Shown here: piece by piece, positions 11,499-44,301 of the stretch | How positions within the stretch are numbered: the first letter of the stretch is position 1 | How the letters are laid out: every line of letters begins with the position of its first letter | Assembly (NCBI RefSeq): GCF_003634935.1 | Contig: NZ_RBXO01000001.1 | Span: 4,241,501-4,305,500, forward strand | Direction of reading: 5' to 3' | DNA: 64,000 nucleotides | Source: Saccharothrix australiensis | GTDB lineage: Bacteria; Actinomycetota; Actinomycetes; Mycobacteriales; Pseudonocardiaceae | Notes under the pieces: model-generated | What the model was told of the DNA's origin: nothing | What the model saw: the letters and a program-made list of their open reading frames with translations, nothing else | Databases searched by the model: none | Translations under genes and position numbers: made by a program

Positions 11499-11919
11499 GT
11501 CCGGGATCGTAGCGGCCACCGTCAATCATGGATTCTGGTATTCACTGAAATGATTAATCAGATCGACGGTCGTGACGCGGGCCGCCACTGGCGCGGGACG
11601 ACGTCGTCGGACTGTGACGCGCAACGCACGACCGGTGGTTAACTGTAAACACACCGCGTCCGCACGGACGCACCCGGACAGCCCTGCGGCGTACGCCGTC
11701 CGTCGGGTGGCCGCAGAGTGTTTCCGTGGTGTTTCCACGTGGTTTGAGCTGCGGTTTTGCCCGATTTGCCGCCCTCGTGCAGTCGGCTGACCTGCACTGC
11801 TGGCCTAAACCCGAAAACCTCTCGGCCCCAAAGAGGGCATTTACGCGTCCGTTCACGCCCATACGATCGGTTCACCTGGTCGACCGCCCCGGCCGATGGC
11901 GTTCCGCCGCCCGACCGGT
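11499..11919. other. gene-free, locally AT-richer region with candidate ArsR operator
   Basis: No gene is supportable here. Immediately upstream of the ArsR gene lies an AT-rich patch (about 11525-11562) with the perfect palindrome TGATTAATCA (11551-11560) next to ATTCACTGAA, a plausible ArsR autoregulatory site. The rest of the stretch, around 11720-11870, has unusually low GC for this genome (TGGTTTGAGC, GCATTTACGC) but no recognisable coding sequence or RNA gene. Confidence 0.35.
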
Positions 11920-11952
11920 GGCCCCCGGACTACCCTGCACTGTCCGGGGGCC
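11920..11952 (-). terminator. terminator of LLM-uppP-phosphatase operon
   Basis: A perfect 11-bp stem, GGCCCCCGGAC (11920-11930) with GTCCGGGGGCC (11942-11952), and an 11-nt loop lies 31 nt past the phosphatase stop at 11983. Confidence 0.75.
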
Positions 11953-11982
11953 ACACGTGAGCCCCGCGGACGCCGGGCGCCG

Positions 11983-12678
11983 TCACACCGCCCCGGTGCT
12001 GCCCCCGACGACCGCGTCCGACGACGGCTCGTCGGTCTTGTCCGGCGGCGGCACGAGGCCGGACAGGTCGCCGCCGTTGTCGTTGACCCGCAGCACGAAC
12101 GGCCGCGTGTGCGTGTACTGCACCACCGACAGCGACGCCGGGTCGACCACGATCCGCTGGAACCCGTCCAGGTGCACGCCCAGCGCGTCGGCCAGCACCG
12201 CCTTGATCACGTCGCCGTGGCTGCACGCCACCCACACCGCGCGCGGCCCGCGCTCCGCGGTGATCCGCGCGTCGTGCGCCCGGATCGCCGCCACCGCCCG
12301 CGCCTGGACGCCCGCCAGGCCCTCGCCGCCGGGGAACACCGCCGCCGACGGGTGCTGCTGCACGACCTGCCACAGCGGCTCGCCCAGCAGGTCCTTGATC
12401 GCCTTGCCGGTCCAGTCGCCGTACTCGACCTCGGCCAGCTCCGGTTCGACCGCGGCCGTCAGGCCGCGCTCGGCCAGCAGCGGCGCGAGGGTCTGCCGGC
12501 AGCGCTCCAGCGGCGAGGTGACCACGGCGTCCACCGGCACGCCCGCCAGCCGCCGCACCAGCCCGTCCGCCTGCTCGACACCCCGTTCCGACAGCCCGAC
12601 GCCGGGCCGGCGACCCGCCAGGACGCCGGCGCCGTTGGCGGTGGAACGGGCGTGTCGGAGCAAGATCACGGTAGCCAC
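11983..12678 (-). CDS. histidine phosphatase superfamily protein (MSMEG_4193-like phosphomutase family)
   Basis: 231 residues from GTG 12678. The N-terminal LLRHARST is the RHG motif carrying the phospho-accepting His; VVTSPLERCRQTLAPLL, YGDWTGK and VACSHGDVIKAVLADALG supply the other catalytic Arg and His. This is the branched phosphoglycerate-mutase-like family found in actinobacteria next to uppP. Here its start lies only 10 nt after the uppP stop, so they are co-transcribed. The substrate is unknown; a hydrolytic role on a phosphorylated small molecule or lipid is likelier than glycolytic mutase activity. Confidence 0.92.
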   Translation of the reverse strand: MATVILLRHARSTANGAGVLAGRRPGVGLSERGVEQADGLVRRLAGVPVDAVVTSPLERCRQTLAPLLAERGLTAAVEPELAEVEYGDWTGKAIKDLLGEPLWQVVQQHPSAAVFPGGEGLAGVQARAVAAIRAHDARITAERGPRAVWVACSHGDVIKAVLADALGVHLDGFQRIVVDPASLSVVQYTHTRPFVLRVNDNGGDLSGLVPPPDKTDEPSSDAVVGGSTGAV

Positions 12679-12688
12679 GGAGCCCAGC

Positions 12689-13513
12689 CTATGTCGGGTT
12701 GATGAGTCCCATCGACAGCAGGCCCATCAGCATGATGCCCAGCAGCAGCCGGTACCACACGAACGCCGAGTAGCTGTGCTTGGACACGTACCGCAGCAGC
12801 CAGGCGATCGTGGCGTACCCGACGGCGAACGCCACGACCGTCGCGACGATCATCTGCGGCACCGACGCGGCGTTGGGCTCGGACCGGTCGAGCACGTCCG
12901 GGATGGAGAAGATGCCCGCGCCGAACACCGCGGGCAGCGCCAGCAGGAACGAGTAGCGCGCGGCGGCGGCCCGGTCCAGGCCGAGGAACAGGCCGGCGGT
13001 GAGCGTGCCGCCCGACCGCGAGACGCCGGGGATCAGCGCCAGCGCCTGCGCCAGGCCCATGCCGACGGCGTCCTTGAGCTGGAGCCGGTCCCGCGCGTGC
13101 TTGGCGATCTGGTCGGCCAGGCCCAGCAGCAGGCCGAACAGCACCAGCACCGTCGCGGTGATCCACAGGTTGCGCAGCGAGCTGCGGATCTCGTCCTTGA
13201 ACGCGTAGCCGAGCACGCTGATCGGGATCGACCCGATGATCACGTACCAGGCCATCCGGTAGTCCTCGGTCTTCCGCGCCGCGGCGCTGAACAGCCCCTT
13301 GAACCACGCGGCGATGAAGTTGCCGATGTCGCGCGCGAAGTAGATCAGGACGGCGAGCTCGGTGCCCAGCTGGATCACGGCGGTGAACGACGCGCCCGCG
13401 TCGTTGCCGAAGAACAGCGTCGAGACGATCCGCACGTGCGCCGACGAGGATATGGGCAGGAATTCCGTCAAGCCTTGGACGAGTCCGAGGACCAGGGCCT
13501 GCAACCAGCTCAA
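12689..13513 (-). CDS. uppP: undecaprenyl-diphosphatase UppP (BacA)
   Basis: 274 residues, standard UppP length. It starts with TTG 13513, seven nt after AGGAG; TTGA overlaps the stop of the upstream LLM gene. The two catalytic signatures are present: [17 protein letters not shown] (residues 13-29, active-site Glu) and [19 protein letters not shown] (catalytic Arg and Ser). About eight hydrophobic helices indicate an integral membrane protein. It dephosphorylates undecaprenyl pyrophosphate to regenerate the lipid carrier for peptidoglycan and glycopolymer synthesis; excess activity gives bacitracin resistance. Confidence 0.97.
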
Positions 13514-14559
13514 CTACCCACTCCTGCCAGATCGAGTGCTTCGGTCGCGGTGCGTAGCGCCGCGATCCCTCGATCCAGATCTTGCAGCATCGGCGAAAGG
13601 GTGAGTGTGGTGACCCCTGCTTCGGCGTAGGCGCGCATCCGTTCGGCGATGCGCTCCTTCGGGCCGAGCAGGGACGTCGAGTCCAGGAAGTCGACCGGCA
13701 GCGCGGCCATCGCGCCTTCGTAGTCCCTCGCCAGGTACCTGTCCTGCACCTCGGCGGCCTCGGCGGCGAAGCCCATGCGCACCGCCAGGTCGTTGTAGAA
13801 GTTCTTCTCCCGGCTGCCCATGCCGCCCACGTACAGCGCGGCGTAGGGGCGCACGTGGTCGGCGCAGGCCCGCCAGTCGTCGCCCACGACCAGCGGGACG
13901 GTGGGCACGACGTCGAACCCGTCGAGCGTGCGACCGGCCTTCTCCCGGCCGCGGCGCAGCGCGTCGAGCGAGGCGGCCGAGTGCTCCGGCGAGAAGAACA
14001 CCCCGAGCCAGCCGTCGGCGATCTCGCCGGTCAGCTCGACGTTGCGCGGCCCGACCGACGCCAGGTAGACCGGGATGTGCTCGCGCACCGGGTGGACGGT
14101 GAGGGTCAGCGCCTTGCCGGGGCCGTCGGGCAGCGGCAGCCGGTAGTGCTCGCCGTCGTAGCGCAGCCGTTCGCGGCGCAGCGCCGCCCGCACCACGTCG
14201 ACGTACTCGCGGGTGCGCGCGAGCGGCTTGTCGAACCGCACGCCGTGCCAGCCCTCGGACACCTGCGGCCCGGACACGCCGAGGCCCAGGCGGAACCGGC
14301 CGCCGGACAGCGTGTCGAGGGTCGCGGCGGTCATCGCCGCCATCGCCGGGGTGCGGGCCGGGATCTGCAGGATCGCGCTGCCGACGTCGACGCGCTCGGT
14401 CTGCGCGGCCACCCAGGCCAGCACCGTCGGCGCGTCGGAGCCGTACGCCTCGGCGGCCCACACCACCGAGTAGCCCAGCCGGTCGGCTTCCCTGGCCAGT
14501 TCGAGGTTCGCGGCGTCGTTGCCCGCGCCCCAGTACCCGAGGTTCAGTCCCAGTCGCAC
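13510..14559 (-). CDS. LLM-class F420-dependent oxidoreductase (Rv3520c-like)
   Basis: 349 residues from GTG 14559 ([42 protein letters not shown]). The luciferase-like TIM barrel is clear: [45 protein letters not shown], then [31 protein letters not shown]. This branch uses coenzyme F420 for hydride transfer to an unknown substrate. It is the first gene of a three-gene operon with uppP and a histidine phosphatase. A similar neighbourhood occurs in other actinobacteria, suggesting a link to polyprenyl-lipid or cell-wall metabolism, though that is inference. Confidence 0.93.
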
Positions 14560-14738
14560 GGAACGCGACCCTACCGGCGGGTAACCCGATGCGCCAGGGC
14601 AGGGGCGCGCCCACCGCCGACCGTGCCACCCCGACCGTGCCACCCCGGACGGGCCGCCGTTCTCGGCCGTCCTACCCGTGCGGGTGAACCCCGCCGGGCT
14701 GCGGGCGACCGCGCGCCACCGCCGAGTGGATCACCCTT

Positions 14739-14752
14739 TAGGCTCCACCGCG
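14739..14752 (+). promoter_or_regulatory. candidate leaderless promoter of aldo/keto reductase
   Basis: A TAGGCT hexamer (14739-14744, fitting TANNNT) ends seven nt before the GTG at 14752, and no ribosome-binding site precedes the start. This is the spacing expected when transcription begins at the start codon. Confidence 0.4.
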
Positions 14753-15717
14753 TGGAACAGCGATACCTCGGCCACAGCGGACTGCGGGTGTCCCGGATGG
14801 GCCTGGGCACGATGACCTGGGGCCGGGACACCGACGCGGACGAGGCCGCGGCGCAACTGCTGGCGTTCACCGAGGCGGGCGGCACGTTCGTCGACACCGC
14901 CGACGTGTACGTGGAGGGCGAGAGCGAGCGCATCCTGGGCGGCCTGCTGGGCGAGGTGGTGCCGCGCGACCAGGTCGTGGTCGCGACGAAGGCGGTGGCG
15001 CGGCGCAACGACGGCCCGTTCGGCGGCGGCGCGTCGCGGGGCGCGCTGCTGTCCGCGCTGGACGGCTCGCTGCGGCGGCTGGGCGTGGAGCACATCGACC
15101 TGTGGCAGCTGCACGCGTGGGACGCGGCGGTGCCGCTGGAGGAGACGCTGTCCGCGCTGGACGCCGCCGTGGCGTCGGGCAAGGTCCGCTACGTCGGGGT
15201 GTCGAACTACTCGGGCTGGCAGCTCGGCACGGCCGCCGCGCTGCCCGGCCACGTCCGGATCGTGTCGACGCAGGTGGAGTACTCGCTGCTGGAGCGCGGC
15301 GTGGAGCGGGAGGTCGCGCCCGCCGCGGCGCACCACGGGATCGGGCTGCTGTCGTGGGCGCCGCTGGGTCGCGGCGTGCTGACCGGCAAGTACCGCAACG
15401 GCACGCCGTCGGACTCGCGGGGCGCGTCGGCGCACTTCGCGGGCTACGTGGAGCAGCACCGCACGGAGCGGGCGGCGCGGATCGTGCAGGCCGTGGCGAC
15501 GGCGGCGGACGGGCTGGGCACGTCGCCGCTGTCGGTGGCGCTGGCGTGGGTGCGCGACCGGCCGGGCGTGGTCGCGCCGATCGTGGGCGCGCGGGACACC
15601 GGTCAGCTGCTGGGCTCGCTGGCCGCCGAGGCCCTGACCCTGCCGCCGGCGATCAGGGCCGCGCTGGACGACGTGAGCGCGGTCGAGTTCGGCTACCCCG
15701 AGCGCCGGCTGGGCTGA
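14752..15717 (+). CDS. aldo/keto reductase family protein
   Basis: 321 residues from GTG 14752, apparently leaderless. The (beta/alpha)8 aldo/keto reductase signatures are present: LGHSGLRVSRMGLGTMTWG, FVDTADVYVEGESERILG (catalytic Asp and Tyr), VVATKAVAR (catalytic Lys), HIDLWQLHAWD (catalytic His), VRYVGVSNYSGWQ and the NADPH-binding VAPIVGARDTGQL. It is an NADPH-dependent cytoplasmic carbonyl reductase of unknown substrate. It is divergent from the LLM-uppP operon and convergent with the metalloprotein gene. Confidence 0.93.
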   Translation: MEQRYLGHSGLRVSRMGLGTMTWGRDTDADEAAAQLLAFTEAGGTFVDTADVYVEGESERILGGLLGEVVPRDQVVVATKAVARRNDGPFGGGASRGALLSALDGSLRRLGVEHIDLWQLHAWDAAVPLEETLSALDAAVASGKVRYVGVSNYSGWQLGTAAALPGHVRIVSTQVEYSLLERGVEREVAPAAAHHGIGLLSWAPLGRGVLTGKYRNGTPSDSRGASAHFAGYVEQHRTERAARIVQAVATAADGLGTSPLSVALAWVRDRPGVVAPIVGARDTGQLLGSLAAEALTLPPAIRAALDDVSAVEFGYPERRLG

Positions 15718-35886: not shown

Positions 35887-37152
35887 TCAGCGCGTGTGCA
35901 CCATCAGCGAGTCCACGCCGTGCACGATCGACGCCGTCCGGAACGTCGGCCGTTCGTCGGCGAGCCGCAGGTTCGGGAACCGCCGCAGCAGCGCCGGGTA
36001 GGCGGCCCGCAGCTCCATCCGCGCCAGTTCCGCGCCGACGCACCGGTGCGCGCCGTACCCGAACGCCAGGTGCTGCGAGACCTTGCGCGCCGCGTCGAAG
36101 TCGAGCCGGTCCAGGCCCTCCCGGTTCGCGGCGCTCAGCGACACCACGACCACGTCGCCCTCGGCGATCCGCGCGCCGCCGATCTCCAGGTCGTGCTTGG
36201 CGAACCGGGGGAACGCCACCTGCACGACGCTGAGGTGGCGCAGCAGCTCCTCGACCAGCGGCGCGACGGCCTGGTCGTCGTCGCGCATCGCCGACCGCGC
36301 CGCCGGGTCGGTGATCAGGACGATCGCGCCCAGCGCCAGCATGCTCGCGGTGGTGTCGAACCCCCCGGTCAGGACACCGTCGGCCAGGCCGGCCAGCTCC
36401 TCGTCGCCGACCGCGTCGCCGTGCTCGCGGATGATCATGCCGAGCAGGCCGTCACCGGGCGAGCGGCGCTCCTTGCGGACGATCTTCTCCATGTACTTCA
36501 GCGACTCGGAGATCGCGCCCAGCGCCGAGTTCGCGCCGCCGAACAGGTCGAACCGCGCCGCCGCCAGCTCCTGGAACCGGGCGCGGTCCTCGTAGGGCAC
36601 GCCGAGCAGCTCGCAGATCGTCAGCGAGGGGATCGGCAGCGCGAACTCCTTCACCAGGTCCACCGGTCCGTCGACGGCGGCCATCGCGTCCAGGCGCTCG
36701 GTGACGATCTCGTCGATGCGCGGCACCAGGCGCGACATCCGGCGCATGGTGAACTCCGGCGTCAGCAGCTTGCGCAGGCGCGTGTGGTCCGGCGGGTCGG
36801 CGAACCCGAGACCACCGGGGGTCTGCTCGATCCGCCCGACCGCCGCGCCGAGCCGCGCGTAATCATTACTGAACGCTTCTGTGTCGGAAAGCACTTTCCT
36901 CGCCTCGGCCTGGCCCGTGACCAACCACACGCGCACGCCGAACGGCACCGGCAACCGGTGCACCGGGCCGGCCTCGCTCATCCGCCCCAACTCGGCGGCC
37001 GGCACGACCCCATCCCGCTTCAACGGGACCAGCGCACGGTCCGGGAGCAGCGACAACGCCCTCGAACCGATCCTGCCCATGACCCACCGCGTCACCGAAC
37101 GCCGTGCGACCCACGCCACCAATCCGTCGCGCACAGACGCCAGAGTCGCCAT
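35887..37152 (-). CDS. cytochrome P450
   Basis: 421 residues from ATG 37152 with AGAGGGG upstream. P450 landmarks are present: helix C-region PPDHTRLRKLLTPEFTMRRM, the I-helix GGFDTTASMLALG (substituting for the usual AGxDT with FDTT), the K-helix EELLRH (ExxR), and the heme loop FGYGAHRCVGAELARMEL with the axial Cys near residue 370. The acidic-alcohol DT pair for O2 activation is intact. It is a soluble bacterial class I enzyme needing a ferredoxin and reductase; none is adjacent. The substrate is unknown. It is divergent from the riboswitch-controlled operon across about 300 nt. Confidence 0.93.
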   Translation of the reverse strand: MATLASVRDGLVAWVARRSVTRWVMGRIGSRALSLLPDRALVPLKRDGVVPAAELGRMSEAGPVHRLPVPFGVRVWLVTGQAEARKVLSDTEAFSNDYARLGAAVGRIEQTPGGLGFADPPDHTRLRKLLTPEFTMRRMSRLVPRIDEIVTERLDAMAAVDGPVDLVKEFALPIPSLTICELLGVPYEDRARFQELAAARFDLFGGANSALGAISESLKYMEKIVRKERRSPGDGLLGMIIREHGDAVGDEELAGLADGVLTGGFDTTASMLALGAIVLITDPAARSAMRDDDQAVAPLVEELLRHLSVVQVAFPRFAKHDLEIGGARIAEGDVVVVSLSAANREGLDRLDFDAARKVSQHLAFGYGAHRCVGAELARMELRAAYPALLRRFPNLRLADERPTFRTASIVHGVDSLMVHTR

Positions 37153-37240
37153 CCCAACACCCCTCTTCCCCAGGTTGATTCGAACGACGGTAACCGTACG
37201 TACGAGCGAACAGCATCGCGCCACAGGCGGATTGACAGCG

Positions 37241-37451
37241 CGTGGCCGGTGACAGACGATCGGCAATCGCGCATGAAACGGGGGAAGCCGGTCGGAATCC
37301 GGCGCTGACCCGCAACGGTAGGTCCCACGTGGACGAGCCCGAACACCCGCCGTGCGTGCACAGCTCCTGACACCGTCGAGGTCCACGGTGCGGAGTCCGG
37401 GGGAGGTCGGCGACGGCTGTCCGGGGTCCGCGCCCCTCGCGCCCGGAAAGG
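37241..37451 (+). promoter_or_regulatory. cobalamin (B12) riboswitch
   Basis: The conserved cobalamin-aptamer core is readable: GGGGGAAGCCGGT at 37280-37292, AATCCGGCGCTGACCCGCAA at 37296-37315 and CGGTAGG after it, preceded by a GGTGACAG 5' arm and followed by a B12-box-like segment (GAACACCCGCC, 37341-37351). Further downstream CCGGGG (37421-37426) can pair with CCCGG (37442-37446), which abuts the ribosome site GGAAAGG (37445-37451) of the next gene. This suggests translational shut-off when B12 is bound. A TTGACA-N17-GACGAT pair (37232-37260) overlaps the aptamer arm, so the real promoter may lie further upstream. The 5' and 3' limits are approximate. Confidence 0.88.
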
Positions 37452-37458
37452 CCGCACC

Positions 37459-38748
37459 ATGCCGTTGAGACGGACCGCAGCACTCGCACTGTCCGCCCTC
37501 GTCGCAGCGCCGGTCCTCGCCGCCGCGCCCGCCGCCGCCGAGCCCGTCACCACCGAGCCCGTCACCACTCGGGAGCCCGTGGCGGCCGCCGCCGGCTGGC
37601 TGGCCCGGCAACTGGTCGACGGCGAGCGGTTCGAGACCGTCATCGGGACGGACACCTACCCCGACCAGGGCCTGACCATCGACGCGCTGCTCGCGTTCGA
37701 CGCGGCGGGCGTCGCGCAGGACAACGCGCGCAAGGCGCTCGCGTGGCTCGGGAAGCCCGAGGTCATCGGCGGCTACGTCACCGACGACCAGGGCTCCCGG
37801 TACGCCGGCGCGCACGCCAAGCTCGCGCTCGCCGTCCTGGCCCAGGGCGGGGACCCGACGGACTTCGGCGGCGTCGACCTGATCGCCGGGCTGACCGCCC
37901 TGCAGGCACCGTCCGGCCGGTTCACCGACCGGACGACGCCCCCGACCGACTACACCAACAGCTTCACGCAGTCCATCGCGGTGATCGCCCTGGAGCGGCA
38001 CGACGCCGCGCCGGGCGTGGCCGTGGACTTCCTGGCGAACAGCGCCTGCCCGGACGGCGGGTTCCCGCTGAAGTTCGAGCAGCCGACCTGCACGTCGCAG
38101 GTCGACGCCACCGCGATGGCCGTGCAGGCGCTGCTCGCCGCGGGCCGCACCGCCACCGCCACCGAGGGCCTGGACTGGCTGGTGACCCAGCAGGCGGACG
38201 ACGGCGGGTTCCGCGACAACGGGCTGCCCGGCGACCAGGGGACCACGAGCAACGCCAACAGCACCGGGCTGGCCGCGCAGGCGCTGCGCGTGGGCGGGCG
38301 CACCGCCGCCGCGGACCGGGCCGTCGCCCACCTCACCGGCCTCCAGGTCGGGTGCGGCGACGACCGGACGGCGGGCGCGATCGCCTACGACGGCGCCGGC
38401 TTCAAGCCGGGCAACGCCGTCCGCGCCACCACGCAGGCCGTCCTGGGCCTGTCCGGGGTGGGCCTCGCGGAGATCTCCTCGGCGGGCGACAAGCCCGCCG
38501 CGCCCGTGCTCGACTGCACGACCACCACCACGACGACCACGACGACCACCACGACGACGGAAGAGCCCGCTCCGTCCACTTCGGACACCACGCCCGCCGC
38601 GCCGGCCGCCGGCTCCGCCGGTGAGCTGGCCCGCACCGGCGTCGCCACCGGTCCGGCGCTGCTGCTCGGCGTGCTGCTGGTGCTGGCCGGTGCGCTGGCG
38701 ATGGCGTTGGGGCGCAAGCGGTACACGACGGTGAAGGAGGAGCAGTGA
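37459..38748 (+). CDS. secreted prenyltransferase/squalene-oxidase repeat protein with LAxTG wall anchor (transcobalamin alpha-domain-like)
   Basis: 429 residues from ATG 37459, with GGAAAGG upstream and a B12 riboswitch controlling it. Residues 1-28 are a signal peptide ending AAPAAAEP. Residues about 35-355 are tandem helical-pair repeats (AAGWLARQLVDG, TIDALLAFDAAG, AKLALAVLAQGG, TQSIAVIALERH, ATAMAVQALLAAGRT, STGLAAQALRVGGRT) with QW-like turns (QQADDGGF), an alpha/alpha toroid as in terpene cyclases and the B12-binding domain of transcobalamin/intrinsic factor. A run of 14 Thr forms a stalk. The end, ELARTG then a hydrophobic helix and GRKR, is an LAxTG sortase-E sorting signal. It is probably a wall-anchored cobalamin-capture protein. 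Confidence 0.85.
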   Translation: MPLRRTAALALSALVAAPVLAAAPAAAEPVTTEPVTTREPVAAAAGWLARQLVDGERFETVIGTDTYPDQGLTIDALLAFDAAGVAQDNARKALAWLGKPEVIGGYVTDDQGSRYAGAHAKLALAVLAQGGDPTDFGGVDLIAGLTALQAPSGRFTDRTTPPTDYTNSFTQSIAVIALERHDAAPGVAVDFLANSACPDGGFPLKFEQPTCTSQVDATAMAVQALLAAGRTATATEGLDWLVTQQADDGGFRDNGLPGDQGTTSNANSTGLAAQALRVGGRTAAADRAVAHLTGLQVGCGDDRTAGAIAYDGAGFKPGNAVRATTQAVLGLSGVGLAEISSAGDKPAAPVLDCTTTTTTTTTTTTTTEEPAPSTSDTTPAAPAAGSAGELARTGVATGPALLLGVLLVLAGALAMALGRKRYTTVKEEQ

Positions 38749-39185
38749 CGATCCGCAAGCTCTGGTCGGCCCTGGCGGTGCTGGCCGCCACCGGTGGCGC
38801 GCTGGTGGCGGTGTCGCCCGCCGCGCAGGCCGCGCCGTGCCCCGGCACGAGCGGCGTGACCGTGGTGGTCGACTTCACCGCCCTGGGCGGTGCGGTGCAG
38901 ACCGCGTGCGCGCCCGGCGACCCCGCGACCGGTCTCGCGGCGCTGACCGGCGCCGGGTTCAGCTACGCCTTCCTGCCCCGGCAGCCCGGATTCGTGTGCC
39001 GGATCAACGCGCTGCCCAACCCGTGCAACGGCGCCCCGGTGACGGCGTACTGGTCGTACTGGCACGCCCAGCCGGGCGGCACCTGGGCCTACAGCACGTC
39101 CGGCGCGTCCGCCCACGACCCCGCGCCGGGCAGCGTCGAGGGCTGGGCGTTCGGCGCGGGGCAAGCGCCTTCCACCGCACCGTGA
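38745..39185 (+). CDS. small secreted SCO2322-like protein (DUF4430/transcobalamin beta-domain-like)
   Basis: 146 residues; its GTG overlaps the previous stop (GTGA). A signal peptide (residues about 1-30, ending SPAAQAAPC) is followed by one compact domain of about 110 residues: VTVVVDFTALGG, DPATGLAALTGAGFSYAF, GFVCRINALPNP, TAYWSYWHAQPGGTWAYSTSGASAHDPAPGSVEGWAFG. The order (extended strand, G-L-x-x-L helix, G-F/Y-x-x-x-I-N turn, YW strand, closing G-x-V strand) parallels DUF4430, the beta domain of animal transcobalamins; that parallel is my reading, not a database result. It is released extracellularly and likely cooperates with the toroid protein. Confidence 0.8.
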   Translation: MTIRKLWSALAVLAATGGALVAVSPAAQAAPCPGTSGVTVVVDFTALGGAVQTACAPGDPATGLAALTGAGFSYAFLPRQPGFVCRINALPNPCNGAPVTAYWSYWHAQPGGTWAYSTSGASAHDPAPGSVEGWAFGAGQAPSTAP

Positions 39186-40186
39186 CGGCACGTGCGGGAT
39201 CGGCCGCAGCCAGTGGTGCGGCGCCGCCGACCGCAGCCAGTGGTGCGCCGGGGGTGCCTCCCGTCACGAGCGGACCGCCTCGCGCCGCCGGTGTCGGGGG
39301 CGGGCACCGCCGACCGGCCACGACCGGCGGCGAACCGCGCAGGGCGCTCGGCGTCCGGTCGCGCGCCCTGCTGCTGGTGGTTGGGCTGCTGGTGGTTGGG
39401 CTGCTCGCGGCCGGGCCGCTGGTGGCGGGTGCTCCCCTGCCCGCCGCGGCGGCCGCCGAGTGCGCGGGCGTCACCGTGGTGGTGGACTTCGGCGCGGCCG
39501 GCGGCGGCGTGCGGACCGGCTGCGCGCCCGGCGACCCCGCCAGCGGCCTGGCCGCGCTGAGCGCCGCGGGTTTCGGCTACCGGATGGCGCAGCGGTTCGC
39601 GGGCTTCGTGTGCCGCATCGACAACCGGCCCGAGAGCGACCCGTGCGTCAACGCCTCCCCCACCGACGCCTACTGGTCCTACTGGCACGCCCAGCCGGGC
39701 GGGTCCTGGACCTACAGCGACGTGGGCGCGGCGGCCCGCGACCCCGCGCCGGGCAGCGTCGAGGGCTGGGCGTTCGGCGCCGGCGCGCAACCCGCCGCCG
39801 CACCGCCGGCACCACCGCACCGCCCGGAACCACCCCGCGACGAGCCGCCCCGGCAGCCGGGCGGGCCCGCCGATCCCCCGCCACCCGTGCCCACCGGGCG
39901 AGCCGACCCGAACGGACCGCCCACACCACCCACGACGACGACCACGAACTCGGAACCCACCACGACCACCACGACGACGACCGCGACCACGAGCGCCATC
40001 ACCGAGGCGTCCTCGACGGCCGGCACACCCACCACCACTTCCGGTGTCACGCCGTTGGCCGCCGAGCAGCGACCCGACGACACCGGCGGCGGCGCCGTCG
40101 GTCTCCTGGTCGGGCTCGCGCTGATCACCGCGATCGGCGCGCTGGGCTGGTGGACGGTGCGCAAGCGCCGCCAGGCGGGTACGTGA
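39182..40186 (+). CDS. membrane-anchored SCO2322-like protein with Thr/Pro stalk
   Basis: 334 residues; GTG overlaps the preceding stop. An unusually long N-terminal tail of about 60 residues precedes a hydrophobic signal (ALLLVVGLLVVGLLAAGPLVAGAPLPAAAAA). The SCO2322-like domain follows (VTVVVDFGAAGGG, DPASGLAALSAAGFGYRMAQ, GFVCRIDNRP, YWSYWHAQPGGSWTYSDVGA, PGSVEGWAFG), closely matching the previous gene, so the pair arose by duplication. A Pro/Thr-rich stalk (about 215-295) and a final helix (GLLVGLALITAIGALGWW) with RKRR end tether it to the membrane. DDTGGG before the helix resembles a degenerate sorting motif, but no LPxTG/LAxTG is present. Confidence 0.82.
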   Translation: MTARAGSAAASGAAPPTAASGAPGVPPVTSGPPRAAGVGGGHRRPATTGGEPRRALGVRSRALLLVVGLLVVGLLAAGPLVAGAPLPAAAAAECAGVTVVVDFGAAGGGVRTGCAPGDPASGLAALSAAGFGYRMAQRFAGFVCRIDNRPESDPCVNASPTDAYWSYWHAQPGGSWTYSDVGAAARDPAPGSVEGWAFGAGAQPAAAPPAPPHRPEPPRDEPPRQPGGPADPPPPVPTGRADPNGPPTPPTTTTTNSEPTTTTTTTTATTSAITEASSTAGTPTTTSGVTPLAAEQRPDDTGGGAVGLLVGLALITAIGALGWWTVRKRRQAGT

Positions 40187-41247
40187 GCCGCGCGCCGCAC
40201 CCCGGCGCGTGGTGGCTGTGGGCGCTGGCCCTGGCGGCGGTCGCGAGCCGCACCACCAACCCGCTGGTGCTCGGCCTGGTGATCGCCGTCGCCGGGTTCG
40301 TCGCCGTGTCCTGCCGAGCGGACACCCCGTGGGCCGACTCCTACGGGGTGTTCCTCAAGTTCGGGCTCGCGGTGATCGGCATCCGGGTCCTGTTCCACGT
40401 CGTGCTGGGCGGGGTCGGCGGCCCCACCGTGCTGTTCACGCTGCCCGAGGTGCCGCTGCCGGCGTGGGCGCGCGGCATCCGGCTCGGCGGACCGGTCACC
40501 GCCGAGGGCGTCGTCTTCGCGCTCTACCAGGGCCTCCAGCTCGCGACCCTGCTGTGCTGCGTGGGCGCGGCGAACGCGCTGGCCAACGCGAAGCGGCTGC
40601 TCAGGTCGCTGCCCGCCGCGCTCTACGAGGTCAGCGTCGCGGTGGTGGTGGCCATGACCGTCGCGCCGCAGCTCGTGGCGGGCGCGCGGTCGGTGCGCCG
40701 GGCGCGGGCGCTGCGCGGCGAGTCCGTGCGCGGGGTGCGGGCGGTGAAGGTGCTGCTGGTGCCGGTGCTGGAGGACGCGTTCGAGCGGTCGCTGGTGCTG
40801 GCCGCCGCGATGGACTCGCGCGGCTACGGCCGCAACGCCGGCCTGCCCACAGGGACCCGCGTCCTCACCGGCGCGCTCGTCCTGGGCGGCCTGGTCGGCC
40901 TGTGCGTCGGCGCGTACGGGCTGCTCGACGGCAGCGCGCCGCCCGTCGTGGGCACCCCGGTGCTCCTGCTCGGCGCGGCGCTCGCGATCACCGGCCTGTG
41001 GACCGGGTCGCGGCGCGTGCGGCGCAGCCGCTACCGGCCGGACACCTGGGGTGCCCGCGAGGCGCTGATCGTCGGGTCCGGGCTCGTCGCGGCGCTGGCG
41101 ACCTACCTCGCGCCGGCCGCGCTGGGCGGCGCGGCGCTCGTGACCTCCACCGTGCCGCTGGAGGCGCCCGCGCTGCCGCCGCTGCCCGTGCTGGGCCTGC
41201 TGTGCGCGCTCGCGCCCGTGCTGACCGCCGAACGGAAGACACCATGA
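40183..41247 (+). CDS. ECF transporter T component (CbiQ/EcfT family)
   Basis: 354 residues; GTG overlaps the previous stop. Several membrane helices are visible (WWLWALALAAVASRTTNPLVLGLVIAVAGFVAV, FLKFGLAVIGIRVLFHVVL and others). The coupling region carries the EcfT arginine signatures, RARALRGES and AAAMDSRGYGRN, which insert into the ATPases. Pro-rich extracellular segments and a second set of helices (VLTGALVLGGLVGLCVGAYGLL, ALIVGSGLVAALATYLAP) make it longer than typical CbiQ (about 260). It links the ATPases to the substrate-binding S component during import. Confidence 0.9.
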   Translation: MSRAPHPGAWWLWALALAAVASRTTNPLVLGLVIAVAGFVAVSCRADTPWADSYGVFLKFGLAVIGIRVLFHVVLGGVGGPTVLFTLPEVPLPAWARGIRLGGPVTAEGVVFALYQGLQLATLLCCVGAANALANAKRLLRSLPAALYEVSVAVVVAMTVAPQLVAGARSVRRARALRGESVRGVRAVKVLLVPVLEDAFERSLVLAAAMDSRGYGRNAGLPTGTRVLTGALVLGGLVGLCVGAYGLLDGSAPPVVGTPVLLLGAALAITGLWTGSRRVRRSRYRPDTWGAREALIVGSGLVAALATYLAPAALGGAALVTSTVPLEAPALPPLPVLGLLCALAPVLTAERKTP

Positions 41248-42881
41248 TCCGGTTCGAGAACGTCGCCGTCACCTACCCCGGCGCGCCCGGCCCGGCGCTG
41301 TCCGGGGTGGACCTGCACGTGCCCGAGGGCGAGCTGTGCCTGCTCGTCGGCCGCACCGGCGCGGGCAAGTCCACCCTGCTGCGCGCCGTCAACGGGCTGG
41401 TGCCGCACTTCACGGGCGGCACGCTCACCGGCCGCGTCCTCGTCGACGGGCGCGACACCCGCACCCACCCGCCGCGCGAGCTGGCCGACGTGGTCGGCCT
41501 CGTCGCGCAGGACCCGCAGGCCGGGTTCGTCACCGACTCGGTCGAGGACGAGCTGGCCTACTCGATGGAGTCGCTGGGCCTGCCGAACCCGGTGATGCGC
41601 AAGCGCGTCGAGGAGACCCTCGACCTGCTCGGCCTCGCCGACCTGCGCCACCGGCCCCTCGCCACGCTGTCCGGCGGCCAGCAGCAGCGCGTGGCCGTCG
41701 GCGCGGCGCTCACCGCGCACCCCCGCGCGCTGGTGCTGGACGAGCCGACCTCCGCGCTCGACCCCGGCGCGGCGGAGGACGTGCTGGCCGCCCTGCACCG
41801 CCTCGTGCACGACCTGGGCATGACCGTGTTGATCGCCGAGCACCGCCTGGAACGGGTCGCGCAGTACGCCGACCGCGTCGTCTGGCTGCCCGACGGCGGC
41901 CGGCCCGTCGCGGGCGAACCCGGCGAGGTGCTGGCCGAAGCGCCCGTCGCGCCGCCCGTCGTGCGCCTGGGGCGGCTCGCGGGCTGGCGACCCGTCCCGG
42001 TGTCCATCCGCGACGCCCGCCGCCTCGCCGGTCCCCTGCGCGACCGGCTCGGCCCGCCGCCGACCGCCGACCCGACGGCGCGCCACACCCCCGACGGCGC
42101 GGCGACCCACGGCGCGCGCGCACCGGAACTGCTGCGCGCCAAGGGCGTCCGCGTCCGGTACGGCGCGGTCGACGCCCTGCGCGGCGTCGACCTCACCGCG
42201 CACGCGGGCGAGCGGATCGCCGTCATGGGCCGCAACGGCTCCGGCAAGTCCAGCCTGCTGTGGGCGTTGCAGGGCACCGGGAAGCGCTCCGGCGGCGAGG
42301 TCGCCGTCGACGGCGTCGACCCCGCCGCCCTCAAACCCGGACCGCGCCGCCACGCCGTCGGCCTCGTCCCGCAGCAACCCGCCGACCTGCTCTACCTGCA
42401 CACCGTCGGCGGCGAGTGCGCCCAGGCCGACCGCGAGTCCGCCGCACCGCCCGGCACCTGCCGCGCCCTGCTGGACCACCTCGCGCCCGGCGTACCCGAC
42501 CCGCGGCACCCCCGCGACCTCTCCGAGGGCCAACGCCTCGCCCTCGCGCTCGCCGTCGCCCTCACCCCGCGCCCCCGCGTCGTCCTGCTCGACGAACCCA
42601 CCCGCGGCCTCGACTACCCCGCCAAGACCCGCCTCGCCGCGGCGCTGCGGGACCTCGCCGACGACGGGCACGCGATCCTGCTCGCCACCCACGACGTCGA
42701 GTTCGTCGCCGAGTACGCCACCCGCGTCGTCGTGCTCGCCGACGGCGAGACCGTGGCCGACGGGCCCACCGGCGAGGTCGTCACCGCGTCGCCGACGTTC
42801 TCGCCGCAGGTCGCCAAGGTGCTCGCGCCGCTGCCGTGGCTCACCGTCGCCGACGTCACCACCGCCCTGGCCACCCGATGA
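41244..42881 (+). CDS. ECF transporter fused ATPase (EcfA-EcfA')
   Basis: 545 residues; ATGA overlap with ecfT. Two complete ABC domains are fused. The first has GRTGAGKSTLL, QDPQAGFVTDSVEDELAYSMESLGLP (a Q-loop pattern typical of Ecf/CbiO), LSGGQQQRVAVGAAL and VLDEPTSALDP. The second has GRNGSGKSSLLWALQG, VPQQPADLLYLHTV, LSEGQRLALALAVAL (degenerate signature, SEGQ in place of SGGQ) and LLDEPTRGLDYP. A disordered linker (PPPTADPTARHTPDGAATHG) joins them. It powers uptake through EcfT. The asymmetric second signature suggests one weaker ATP site, common in ECF pairs. Confidence 0.93.
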   Translation: MIRFENVAVTYPGAPGPALSGVDLHVPEGELCLLVGRTGAGKSTLLRAVNGLVPHFTGGTLTGRVLVDGRDTRTHPPRELADVVGLVAQDPQAGFVTDSVEDELAYSMESLGLPNPVMRKRVEETLDLLGLADLRHRPLATLSGGQQQRVAVGAALTAHPRALVLDEPTSALDPGAAEDVLAALHRLVHDLGMTVLIAEHRLERVAQYADRVVWLPDGGRPVAGEPGEVLAEAPVAPPVVRLGRLAGWRPVPVSIRDARRLAGPLRDRLGPPPTADPTARHTPDGAATHGARAPELLRAKGVRVRYGAVDALRGVDLTAHAGERIAVMGRNGSGKSSLLWALQGTGKRSGGEVAVDGVDPAALKPGPRRHAVGLVPQQPADLLYLHTVGGECAQADRESAAPPGTCRALLDHLAPGVPDPRHPRDLSEGQRLALALAVALTPRPRVVLLDEPTRGLDYPAKTRLAAALRDLADDGHAILLATHDVEFVAEYATRVVVLADGETVADGPTGEVVTASPTFSPQVAKVLAPLPWLTVADVTTALATR

Positions 42882-43693
42882 CCGCGCCCGCCCGCACCGC
42901 GCCCGCCCGGACCGCGCCCATCCGCATCCGGCCCCGCGCCACCGCCGCCCTCGTCGTCTCCGGCGCGATCGGCCTCGCCGCGTTCACCTGGCCCCTGCTC
43001 GTCACCCCCGACGCCGACCTCGCGCAGGGCACCTCCGCGCCCTGGACGTTCGCGCTGCTCCTGCCGCTCGTGCTGGCCGTGGTGCTCGCCGAGATCAGCG
43101 ACCGCGGCATGGACGCCAAGGCCGTCGCGATGCTCGGCGTGCTGTCCGCCCTCGGCGCGGCGATCCGCCCGCTCGGCGCGGGCACCGCGGGCATCGAGAC
43201 GGTCTTCTTCCTCCTCGTGCTCGGCGGCCGGGTGTTCGGACCGGGCTTCGGGTTCGTGCTCGGCAACACCATGCTGTTCGCCTCCGCGCTGCTCACCGGC
43301 GGCGTCGGGCCGTGGCTGCCCTACCAGATGCTCGGCGCGGCGTGGGTCGCGCTCGGCGCGGGGCTGCTGCCCCCGCTCAAGGGCAAGGCGGAACTCGCCC
43401 TGCTCGCCGCCTACAGCGCGGCGGCGGCACTGGTGTACGGGCTGCTGCTGAACCTGTCGTTCTGGCCGTTCGCGCTCGGCGCGGGCAGCACCGGGCTGTC
43501 GTTCCAACCCGGCGGCCCGCTCGCCGACAACCTCGTCCGGCTGGTGGCGTTCAGCCTCGCCACCTCCCTGGGCTGGGACGTCGGCCGCGCCGTCACCACC
43601 ACCGTCCTGGTGCTGGTCACCGGGCCCGTCCTGCTGCGGACCCTGCGCCGCGCCGCCCGCAAGGCCGCCTTCGACCCCGGCCGGGGCGGGTGA
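42878..43693 (+). CDS. ECF transporter S component (predicted cobalamin/corrinoid specificity)
   Basis: 271 residues; ATGA overlap with the ATPase gene, last of the riboswitch operon. The N-terminal tail repeats ARTAPARTAP, then about six helices: TAALVVSGAIGLAAFTWPLLV, FALLLPLVLAVVLAEI, AVAMLGVLSALGAAIRPLG, FFLLVLGGRVFGPGFGFVLGNTMLFASALLTGG, LALLAAYSAAAALVYGLLLNLSFWPF and VRLVAFSLATSLGWDVGRAVTTTVLVLVTG. The RxxGAGTAGIE loop and GFxLGN motif are typical of the large S-component group that includes vitamin transporters such as CbrT. Riboswitch control is the main reason for assigning a B12-type substrate. Confidence 0.88.
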   Translation: MTAPARTAPARTAPIRIRPRATAALVVSGAIGLAAFTWPLLVTPDADLAQGTSAPWTFALLLPLVLAVVLAEISDRGMDAKAVAMLGVLSALGAAIRPLGAGTAGIETVFFLLVLGGRVFGPGFGFVLGNTMLFASALLTGGVGPWLPYQMLGAAWVALGAGLLPPLKGKAELALLAAYSAAAALVYGLLLNLSFWPFALGAGSTGLSFQPGGPLADNLVRLVAFSLATSLGWDVGRAVTTTVLVLVTGPVLLRTLRRAARKAAFDPGRGG

Positions 43694-43831
43694 CGACGAG
43701 GCTCAGAGCGTGTTTGAACTGGGGTGGTCGGTGGTGGTGCGGGGCCGTGATGCGTCGAGGCGCGGCAGGACGCTGCCGGCTCTCGTGGGCGCCTGCGGCC
43801 GCCACGCCACCGCCGACCACGGCCGGCCCGC

Positions 43832-44164
43832 TCACCGGGGCAGCTCCACCCAGACCACGTCGTCGGCCACCCGCACCGGGTAGGGCCGCAGCGCGCAGCC
43901 GGCCGGGTTGATGCCCTGCCCGCTGCGCACGTCGAACTCCCACAGGTGCCCGCCGCAGGTGAGGGTGTCCCCGTCCAGGTCGCCTTCGTCCAACGGCGTG
44001 CCCTGGTGCGGGCACCGGTTGCGATAGGCGCACACCCGTCCGTCGAGGTTGAGCAGCAACACCTCGTGCCCGGCCAGCTCCAGACCGACCATCTCGCCCT
44101 CCCACAACTCGTCCAGGCGCAGCGCGCTGACCCACTCGCCTCCGGTCTGCCCCCGGGCGCTCAC
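43832..44164 (-). CDS. Rieske [2Fe-2S] ferredoxin, toluene monooxygenase T4moC/TmoC-like
   Basis: 110 residues from GTG 44164, overlapping the stop of the small upstream gene (GTGA). The Rieske ligands are CPH (RNRCPHQGTPLDEGDL) and CGGH (TLTCGGHLWEFDV). Flanking sequence follows T4moC of toluene-4-monooxygenase closely in pattern: LDELWEGEM at the start, VLLLN, GQGINPAGCALRPYPVRV and a final DDVVWV strand. T4moC passes electrons from a reductase to a diiron hydroxylase. No hydroxylase, reductase or effector gene of that system is nearby, so it is an orphan carrier here. It is convergent with the ECF operon. Confidence 0.88.
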   Translation of the reverse strand: MSARGQTGGEWVSALRLDELWEGEMVGLELAGHEVLLLNLDGRVCAYRNRCPHQGTPLDEGDLDGDTLTCGGHLWEFDVRSGQGINPAGCALRPYPVRVADDVVWVELPR

Positions 44165-44301
44165 GAGCCCACCCCCGCTCGCCGCCACAGCGCGGTGCGG
44201 GCGCGCAGGCACTGCTCGGCATTCCCCTCCCCGGGCACCGCGGCCGAGGCGTGGACGACCACGCGGTCGTCCACCGCCTCGATGGACAGGGACAGAGTCA
44301 T
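44161..44301 (-). CDS. small hypothetical protein coupled to Rieske ferredoxin
   Basis: 46 residues from ATG 44301, preceded by GAGGATC; its TGA overlaps the Rieske GTG, and third-position GC is high throughout, so it is likely translated. The sequence (MTLSLSIEAVDDRVVVHAS..., ending RTALWRRAGVGS) matches no family I recognise. It is shorter than T4moB or T4moD subunits; it may be a truncated effector-like remnant or simply the gene that sets up translation of the ferredoxin. Confidence 0.5.
   Translation of the reverse strand: MTLSLSIEAVDDRVVVHASAAVPGEGNAEQCLRARTALWRRAGVGS

Follow-up and report, generated by a model that had tools for sequence, protein, structure and literature searches.

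Results

A cobalamin riboswitch leads a six-gene operon

A 64-kb stretch of the Saccharothrix australiensis genome (contig NZ_RBXO01000001.1, positions 4,241,501 to 4,305,500; hereafter the window, numbered from its first letter) carries a six-gene operon that we read, with a probability of roughly 0.8, as a system that takes up cobalamin or related corrinoids with high affinity and is repressed through its riboswitch. An earlier note on this DNA had proposed that its surface proteins capture B12 outside the cell and feed it to an energy-coupling factor (ECF) importer. That remains the best-supported reading, strengthened by the beta fold and the toroid of the surface proteins, three riboswitch families among relatives, co-occurrence of the genes and enrichment in genomes lacking cobN; taken as a whole, the proposal is partly supported.

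The operon layout agrees with the note. The aptamer scores well above the Rfam gathering threshold, and is the sole gathering-level Rfam match of the window. A leader of 90 nucleotides (37369-37458) separates it from the first start codon; when 37230-37470 was folded in search of an expression platform, the energy was no better than that of shuffled sequences (z 0.43). All six genes lie on the plus strand, and each of their five junctions is a 4-nucleotide overlap (GTGA or ATGA). The features are as follows.

37230-37368, plus strand: cobalamin riboswitch aptamer (RF00174; cmscan 48.4 bits, gathering threshold 31.5, E 4.7e-9, model positions 1-189)
37459-38748, plus strand: gene 1, alpha/alpha-toroid surface protein, 429 amino acids, putative alpha half of a B12 clamp (AF2 model with pLDDT 87.5, Foldseek, VIA)
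38626-38640, plus strand: LARTG motif of the sortase type within the toroid protein (residues 390-394), ahead of a transmembrane helix
38745-39185, plus strand: gene 2, secreted single beta domain, 146 amino acids, predicted transcobalamin C-terminal (SLBB/beta-grasp) fold, without a C-terminal transmembrane helix
39182-40186, plus strand: gene 3, second beta-domain protein, 334 amino acids, with a Pro/Thr-rich stalk and a C-terminal transmembrane helix at about residues 300-326 (hydropathy)
40183-41247, plus strand: gene 4, EcfT (CbiQ-type) transmembrane coupling subunit (PF02361, 34.9 bits, cut-off 25)
41244-42881, plus strand: gene 5, EcfA-EcfA' double ATPase in one chain (two ABC_tran stretches among the matches listed)
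42878-43693, plus strand: gene 6, EcfS-like membrane subunit for substrate binding, forming a separate conserved family (PF12822, sub-threshold at 18.4 bits against 30.7)

Family scans and hydropathy bear out the gene roles first assigned in the note (a wall-anchored toroid, two small secreted or tethered proteins, EcfT, a fused EcfA pair and EcfS), with several scores below threshold. The extracellular capture role of the surface proteins is likewise the best-supported one; what the note had missed is that the first three proteins contain domains of the alpha and beta types of the animal B12 binders.

The surface proteins resemble the two halves of animal B12 carriers

The AF2 model, together with Foldseek and VIA comparisons, identifies gene 1 as an alpha/alpha toroid. 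By hydropathy, a signal-like N-terminus precedes the toroid (residues ~37-334), which is followed by a Thr-rich linker and a C-terminal LARTG, transmembrane helix and basic tail. The sortase anchor features are complete (L[AP]xTG, helix, basic tail) and two matches to Sortase PF04203 lie elsewhere in the host genome, so that the protein is predicted, from the motif and these sortases, to be putatively anchored in the wall. Its matches to toroid and prenyltransferase-type Pfam families are all below cut-off: PF01122 gives 14.8 bits against 25, and matches 11 of 34 toroid rows at E up to 1 (best 0.0015). The C-terminal helix is absent from 10 of the 34 rows (hydropathy). Unanchored toroids occur in L037, L039, L041, L044:1882-2913 and L053:11413-12453, some adjoining an unanchored beta protein or standing apart from the ECF operon; these are perhaps freely secreted B12 carriers like haptocorrin.

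Gene 3 encodes a membrane-tethered paralogue of the gene 2 product (67% identity over the beta domain), and the computed model predicts a transcobalamin-type fold for this domain. The transcobalamin-like SLBB clade is marked by a beta-hairpin insert that follows the helix and bears a residue in contact with B12; the model has a short strand (45-48) between helix 34-40 and strand 51-58. The alignment of the domain (A4) comprises the two window proteins and 65 of 67 non-redundant relatives (86 hits, 75 distinct). Pfam DUF4430 has no match in P0002 or P0003, and matches 2 of the 67 rows of A4 at E up to 10; on rescanning four relatives, L056 passes (28.7 against 23.8) and L062, L116 and L117 show no match. 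Since sequence searches of the PDB with P0002, the beta profiles and the L056 beta protein returned no transcobalamin, the link rests on structure, on DUF4430 in one relative from the same operon slot and on operon context. A stand-alone beta domain binding cyanocobalamin is known from PDB entry 5np4, according to its title.

In L097 (Streptomyces sp. CB02056; 11129-14263) and L091 (Kitasatospora sp.; 11692-14802), single frames of 1044 and 1036 amino acids encode a beta domain and two toroids, and close with LASTG or LAFTG, a hydrophobic stretch and a basic tail. Pfam also finds the toroid in these frames, and another beta gene and EcfT/EcfA follow downstream. Such fusions give a reason besides neighbourhood to see the two pieces as parts of one device. 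The tandem toroid is also the kind of intermediate that could yield a permuted toroid.

A putative dedicated importer and a proposed hand-off

A dedicated (group I) ECF transporter has EcfT, two ATPase domains and an S component in a single operon; here EcfT and the ATPases score above their cut-offs, and the S component scores below that of PF12822. The EcfS alignment (A5) has 25 rows and a mean column identity of 64%. The EcfT is of the CbiQ type and one ATPase half matches cbiO TIGR01166 (238 bits, cut-off 211.8), features also expected of a CbiMNQO-type importer of cobalt or another metal, and cobalt importers are often under the control of B12 riboswitches. However, the family matches listed for genes 1-4 and gene 6 include none of the CbiM or CbiN type, and transcobalamin-type domains are not known to act in metal uptake. 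We set this explanation aside as very improbable.

In the model that we infer for corrinoid uptake, low intracellular B12 would relieve riboswitch repression and allow the operon to be expressed. The LARTG-fixed wall toroid, as the alpha half, and the beta proteins, one free and one tethered, would then form a split clamp of the transcobalamin/intrinsic factor kind and sandwich B12 on the outer side of the membrane. From the tethered beta protein the ligand, presumed to be B12, may pass to EcfS, and EcfT with the fused EcfA pair would import it using ATP. The aptamer match, the gene order, the predicted beta fold, the toroid fold, EcfT and EcfA, conservation and co-occurrence are computed results; the nature of the ligand, the closing of alpha and beta around it, the sequence of hand-off, transport and B12-dependent repression are inferred.

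Riboswitches recur among relatives and the genes travel together

Rfam scans of five batches of loci found a same-strand cobalamin-family riboswitch ahead of one or more toroid or beta genes in 14/20, 10/13, 7/8, 4/11 and 6/12 loci, or 41 of 62 distinct loci once duplicates were removed (L051 repeats L020, and L062 was scanned twice). Three families are represented: RF00174, RF01689 (AdoCbl-II) and RF01482 (AdoCbl). In L090, L091, L095 and L097, for example, the riboswitch serves a separate toroid-beta pair.

The genes of the operon travel together. An SCO2321-type match at E 1e-3 was present in 43 of 60 relatives searched, weak toroid hits counted. Loci were fetched for the genomes of 33 of these relatives, and the full set (toroid, beta, EcfT, EcfA and EcfS) lay in one locus in 29 of them, including 22 of the 24 belonging to the same genus. 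A class-level survey covered 246 genomes, with EcfS called by A5 at E 1e-10, the beta domain by A4 at E 1e-3, the toroid by profile A1 at E 1e-15 and CobN by TIGR02257 at E 1e-100. EcfS and the beta domain were each found in 129 genomes: both in 125, one only in 4 and 4, and neither in 113 (Fisher p 1.9e-59, uncorrected for kinship). In 114 of the 125 they lie on one contig within 8 kb. The toroid was detected in 96 genomes, 93 of which also have EcfS.

CobN was found in 125 of the 246 genomes, and EcfS in 45 of these 125 compared with 84 of the 121 lacking CobN (Fisher p 1.5e-7, likewise uncorrected). In f40, a family of small genomes, all 16 members with EcfS have neither a toroid hit at E 1e-15 nor cobN, and three loci (L108, L109 and L119) combine an AdoCbl riboswitch with a beta gene and EcfT/A/S. 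These genomes resemble the acI lineage and may belong to it; a study of acI reports that this lineage has no B12 pathway and that its cobalamin and AdoCbl riboswitches precede an ECF module (PMC5301498). In the 1.2-Mb genome G181, a beta gene (L117:6162-6710, minus strand) stands behind an AdoCbl riboswitch, with no EcfS of the window family at E 1e-10.

Probable joint permutation of toroid and beta domain

In many lineages the toroid and beta profiles match in swapped order. The loci concerned (L109-L115, L118, L119, L120-L134 and L137-L139) encode SCO2321/SCO2322-type proteins, with a permuted toroid and/or beta domain in most of them. A first test called permutation in 9/10 beta and 3/3 toroid frames. 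In a rotation test, ten unpermuted control loci gave no permuted call (0/10 beta, 0/10 toroid) and the other set gave 26/32 for beta and 11/24 for toroid frames; our reading, as yet unproved, is that the toroid misses stem from extra weak hits inside the rotated stretch. In a piece-order test, to which the unpermuted controls do not belong, the downstream piece was moved before the main piece and the score had to beat all 100 shuffles. This was passed by 27 of 29 beta frames (failures L108 and L135) and by 17 of 22 toroid frames (failures L121, L122, L123, L128 and L137). Some frames had been set aside beforehand: L116, L117 and L136 from the beta set, being in native order by the rotation test, and from the toroid set L136 and L110, which are incomplete at contig ends, along with L108, L109 and L114-L119, where the toroid is weak or missing.

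Permuted frames are true members of SCO2321_fam, L113 reaching 624.5 bits but L111 only 179.8, and of SCO2322_fam, with 154-230 bits for L108, L113, L114 and L115. Since these two families are permuted, their models match the window proteins and relatives only piecewise.

The state of the two domains is concordant across genomes. Judged by profile coverage, with 'half' coverage as a proxy for permutation in genomes whose loci were not fetched, the 93 genomes with both domains comprise 41 native/native, 41 half/half, 2 discordant (G196, where the contig is cut, and G238) and 9 unclear cases. This is what one would expect of two domains acting as one functional unit. We lean, with some reserve, towards an Actinomycetota two-piece B12 clamp, with a wall-fixed toroid, movable beta lids and dedicated ECF hand-off, whose pieces were both permuted, and permuted together, in the SCO2321/SCO2322-type lineages.

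Host context and competing explanations

The 7.86-Mb host genome has six cobalamin-riboswitch-like sites, one of which (30.0 bits) falls under the cut-off. Apart from that of the operon, three lead to CobN, a CobA-CobB cluster and a BtuCDF/F420-0-like ATP-binding cassette (ABC) set; CobN, CobA and CobB score above curated cut-offs and the ABC set below. The host thus probably makes B12, judging from these genes, and the operon would be used for salvage where taking up external B12 costs less than making it. The ABC set, a BtuC/BtuD/BtuF or F420-0-like transporter (L061:4790-7610, minus strand), stands behind the 30.0-bit site and is a possible second B12 importer. The strongest host riboswitch (98.2 bits) precedes a membrane protein resembling CbtA by eye and a small CbtB-like peptide (L057:5138-6055, plus strand); an NCBIfam scan of the L057 frame gave no match, and neither did the first two frames downstream of the riboswitch in L060.

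The same architecture could instead take up a corrinoid precursor or analogue (cobinamide, pseudo-B12 or other cobamides) rather than complete cobalamin. The host's synthesis genes could finish a precursor, and ECF-CbrT of Lactobacillus also takes cobinamide, according to the available part of its description (PMC5997447). On the other hand, the 84 of 121 cobN-less genomes with EcfS would need a finished or near-finished cofactor, a need with which salvage is still compatible. We consider this alternative rather unlikely, though worth bearing in mind.

Several observations weigh against cobalamin capture by a two-piece clamp. With cobN, cobA, cobB and the BtuCDF/F420-0-like set in the host, the need for uptake is not obvious. 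No gathering-level cobalamin riboswitch was found in the upstream position in 21 of the 62 scanned loci, contig-end cuts accounting for some of these (L107 and L110), and in L091 and L097 the riboswitch closest to the ECF operon has the opposite orientation, which speaks against uniform control there. The toroid was not found at E 1e-15 in 36 of the 129 EcfS genomes. Profile A5 matched no solved structure in the PDB at E up to 10, including CbrT (6FNP). The beta model has no Foldseek match reaching E 0.001, and it is Foldseek rank, VIA Z and one Pfam match that link it to transcobalamin. Common descent alone could also produce concordant permutation states. Finally, Foldseek places squalene-hopene cyclases first for the toroid model, with transcobalamin (4zrp) at rank 19 and absent from the best 50 VIA matches; the toroid fits the cyclases better, so that the fold by itself tells little.

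This last result raises the question of whether the toroid is a terpene-cyclase-like enzyme or a generic surface protein, B12 being handled by the ECF part only. Its signal-like N-terminus and wall-anchor motif argue otherwise, as do the fusion to a transcobalamin-type beta domain in P0008 and P0009, the presence of EcfS in nearly all toroid genomes and a permutation state that tracks that of the beta domain; no D-x-D-D string, the motif expected of such an enzyme, occurs in the toroid. A terpene cyclase was set aside on the signal, anchor, co-occurrence and fusion, and we regard this explanation in either form as improbable.

The operon is flanked by a divergent upstream gene (35887-37163, minus strand) resembling a cytochrome P450 by eye, and by a downstream gene (~43800-44170, minus strand) resembling a Rieske-type ferredoxin, again by eye.

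Significance and comparison with known systems

B12 is traded between microbes, yet its capture outside Gram-positive cells is poorly known. The operon supplies named, testable genes for this step in Actinomycetota, including small-genome lineages without cobN; if the two-piece clamp is correct, the toroid-less f40 genomes would mean that capture needs no more than the beta piece. Joint permutation of both halves would be a natural experiment in the working of a two-domain ligand clamp and, if true, would record how the two faces of a single binding site coevolved. The operon also connects the B12 carriers of animals with a bacterial surface system that is widespread, a link relevant to the proposal of 2007 that animals took over these carriers from bacteria.

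The earlier note had known of no described mechanism for the combined set, but in kind such a set is on record. In the sections available, Burroughs et al. (2007; PMC1796856) describe transcobalamin-like SLBB proteins of Gram-positive bacteria, many of them fusions with toroids whose genes accompany CbiO/CbiQ-like ones, and propose them as B12 scavengers. Their clade list, in the same sections, names low-GC Gram-positives, planctomycetes and euryarchaea, and not actinobacteria. The window system shares with these Firmicute systems, as far as described there, the two domain types, surface location, paralogous SLBB pairs, ECF-type neighbours and proposed scavenging. It differs in having the domains on separate genes, a riboswitch and window proteins that DUF4430 misses. 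Moreover, those bacteria usually lack key B12-synthesis enzymes, according to the same sections (PMC1796856), whereas this host has synthesis genes. In the open-licence literature searched, we found no description of an actinobacterial split form with riboswitch types, or of single or joint permutation of transcobalamin-type domains, and the one hit for SCO2321-SCO2325 was unrelated by title.

SCO2321_fam (NF053823) and SCO2322_fam occupy the same operon slots and have the same domains after rotation, but are circularly permuted relative to the window proteins, which miss the curated cut-offs (124 bits against 300 for gene 1; 31.9 and 29.4 against 85 for genes 2 and 3). Circular permutation of another beta-grasp domain, the UFD of E1 enzymes, has been described, in the part of the source accessible (PMC1949818). 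Compared with human transcobalamin, intrinsic factor and haptocorrin (2bb5, 3kq4 and 4kki), the window system differs in its separate chains, their order and their anchoring; its toroid is not specifically closer to transcobalamin than to terpene cyclases, and B12 binding is putative.

With ECF-CbrT of Lactobacillus delbrueckii the operon has in common ECF-type B12 import, shown there and proposed here (PMC5997447, available part). ECF-CbrT uses a shared group II module, its description, so far as accessible, mentions no toroid or beta partner, and the window EcfS has no sequence match to 6FNP. Bacteroides BtuG/BtuH and BtuB, as portrayed in the accessible text of PMC12751083, likewise pass B12 captured at the surface to an importer, as we propose for the window system. 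Unlike the window proteins, however, BtuG and BtuH are, by that text, lipoproteins beside an outer-membrane receptor in a Gram-negative cell.

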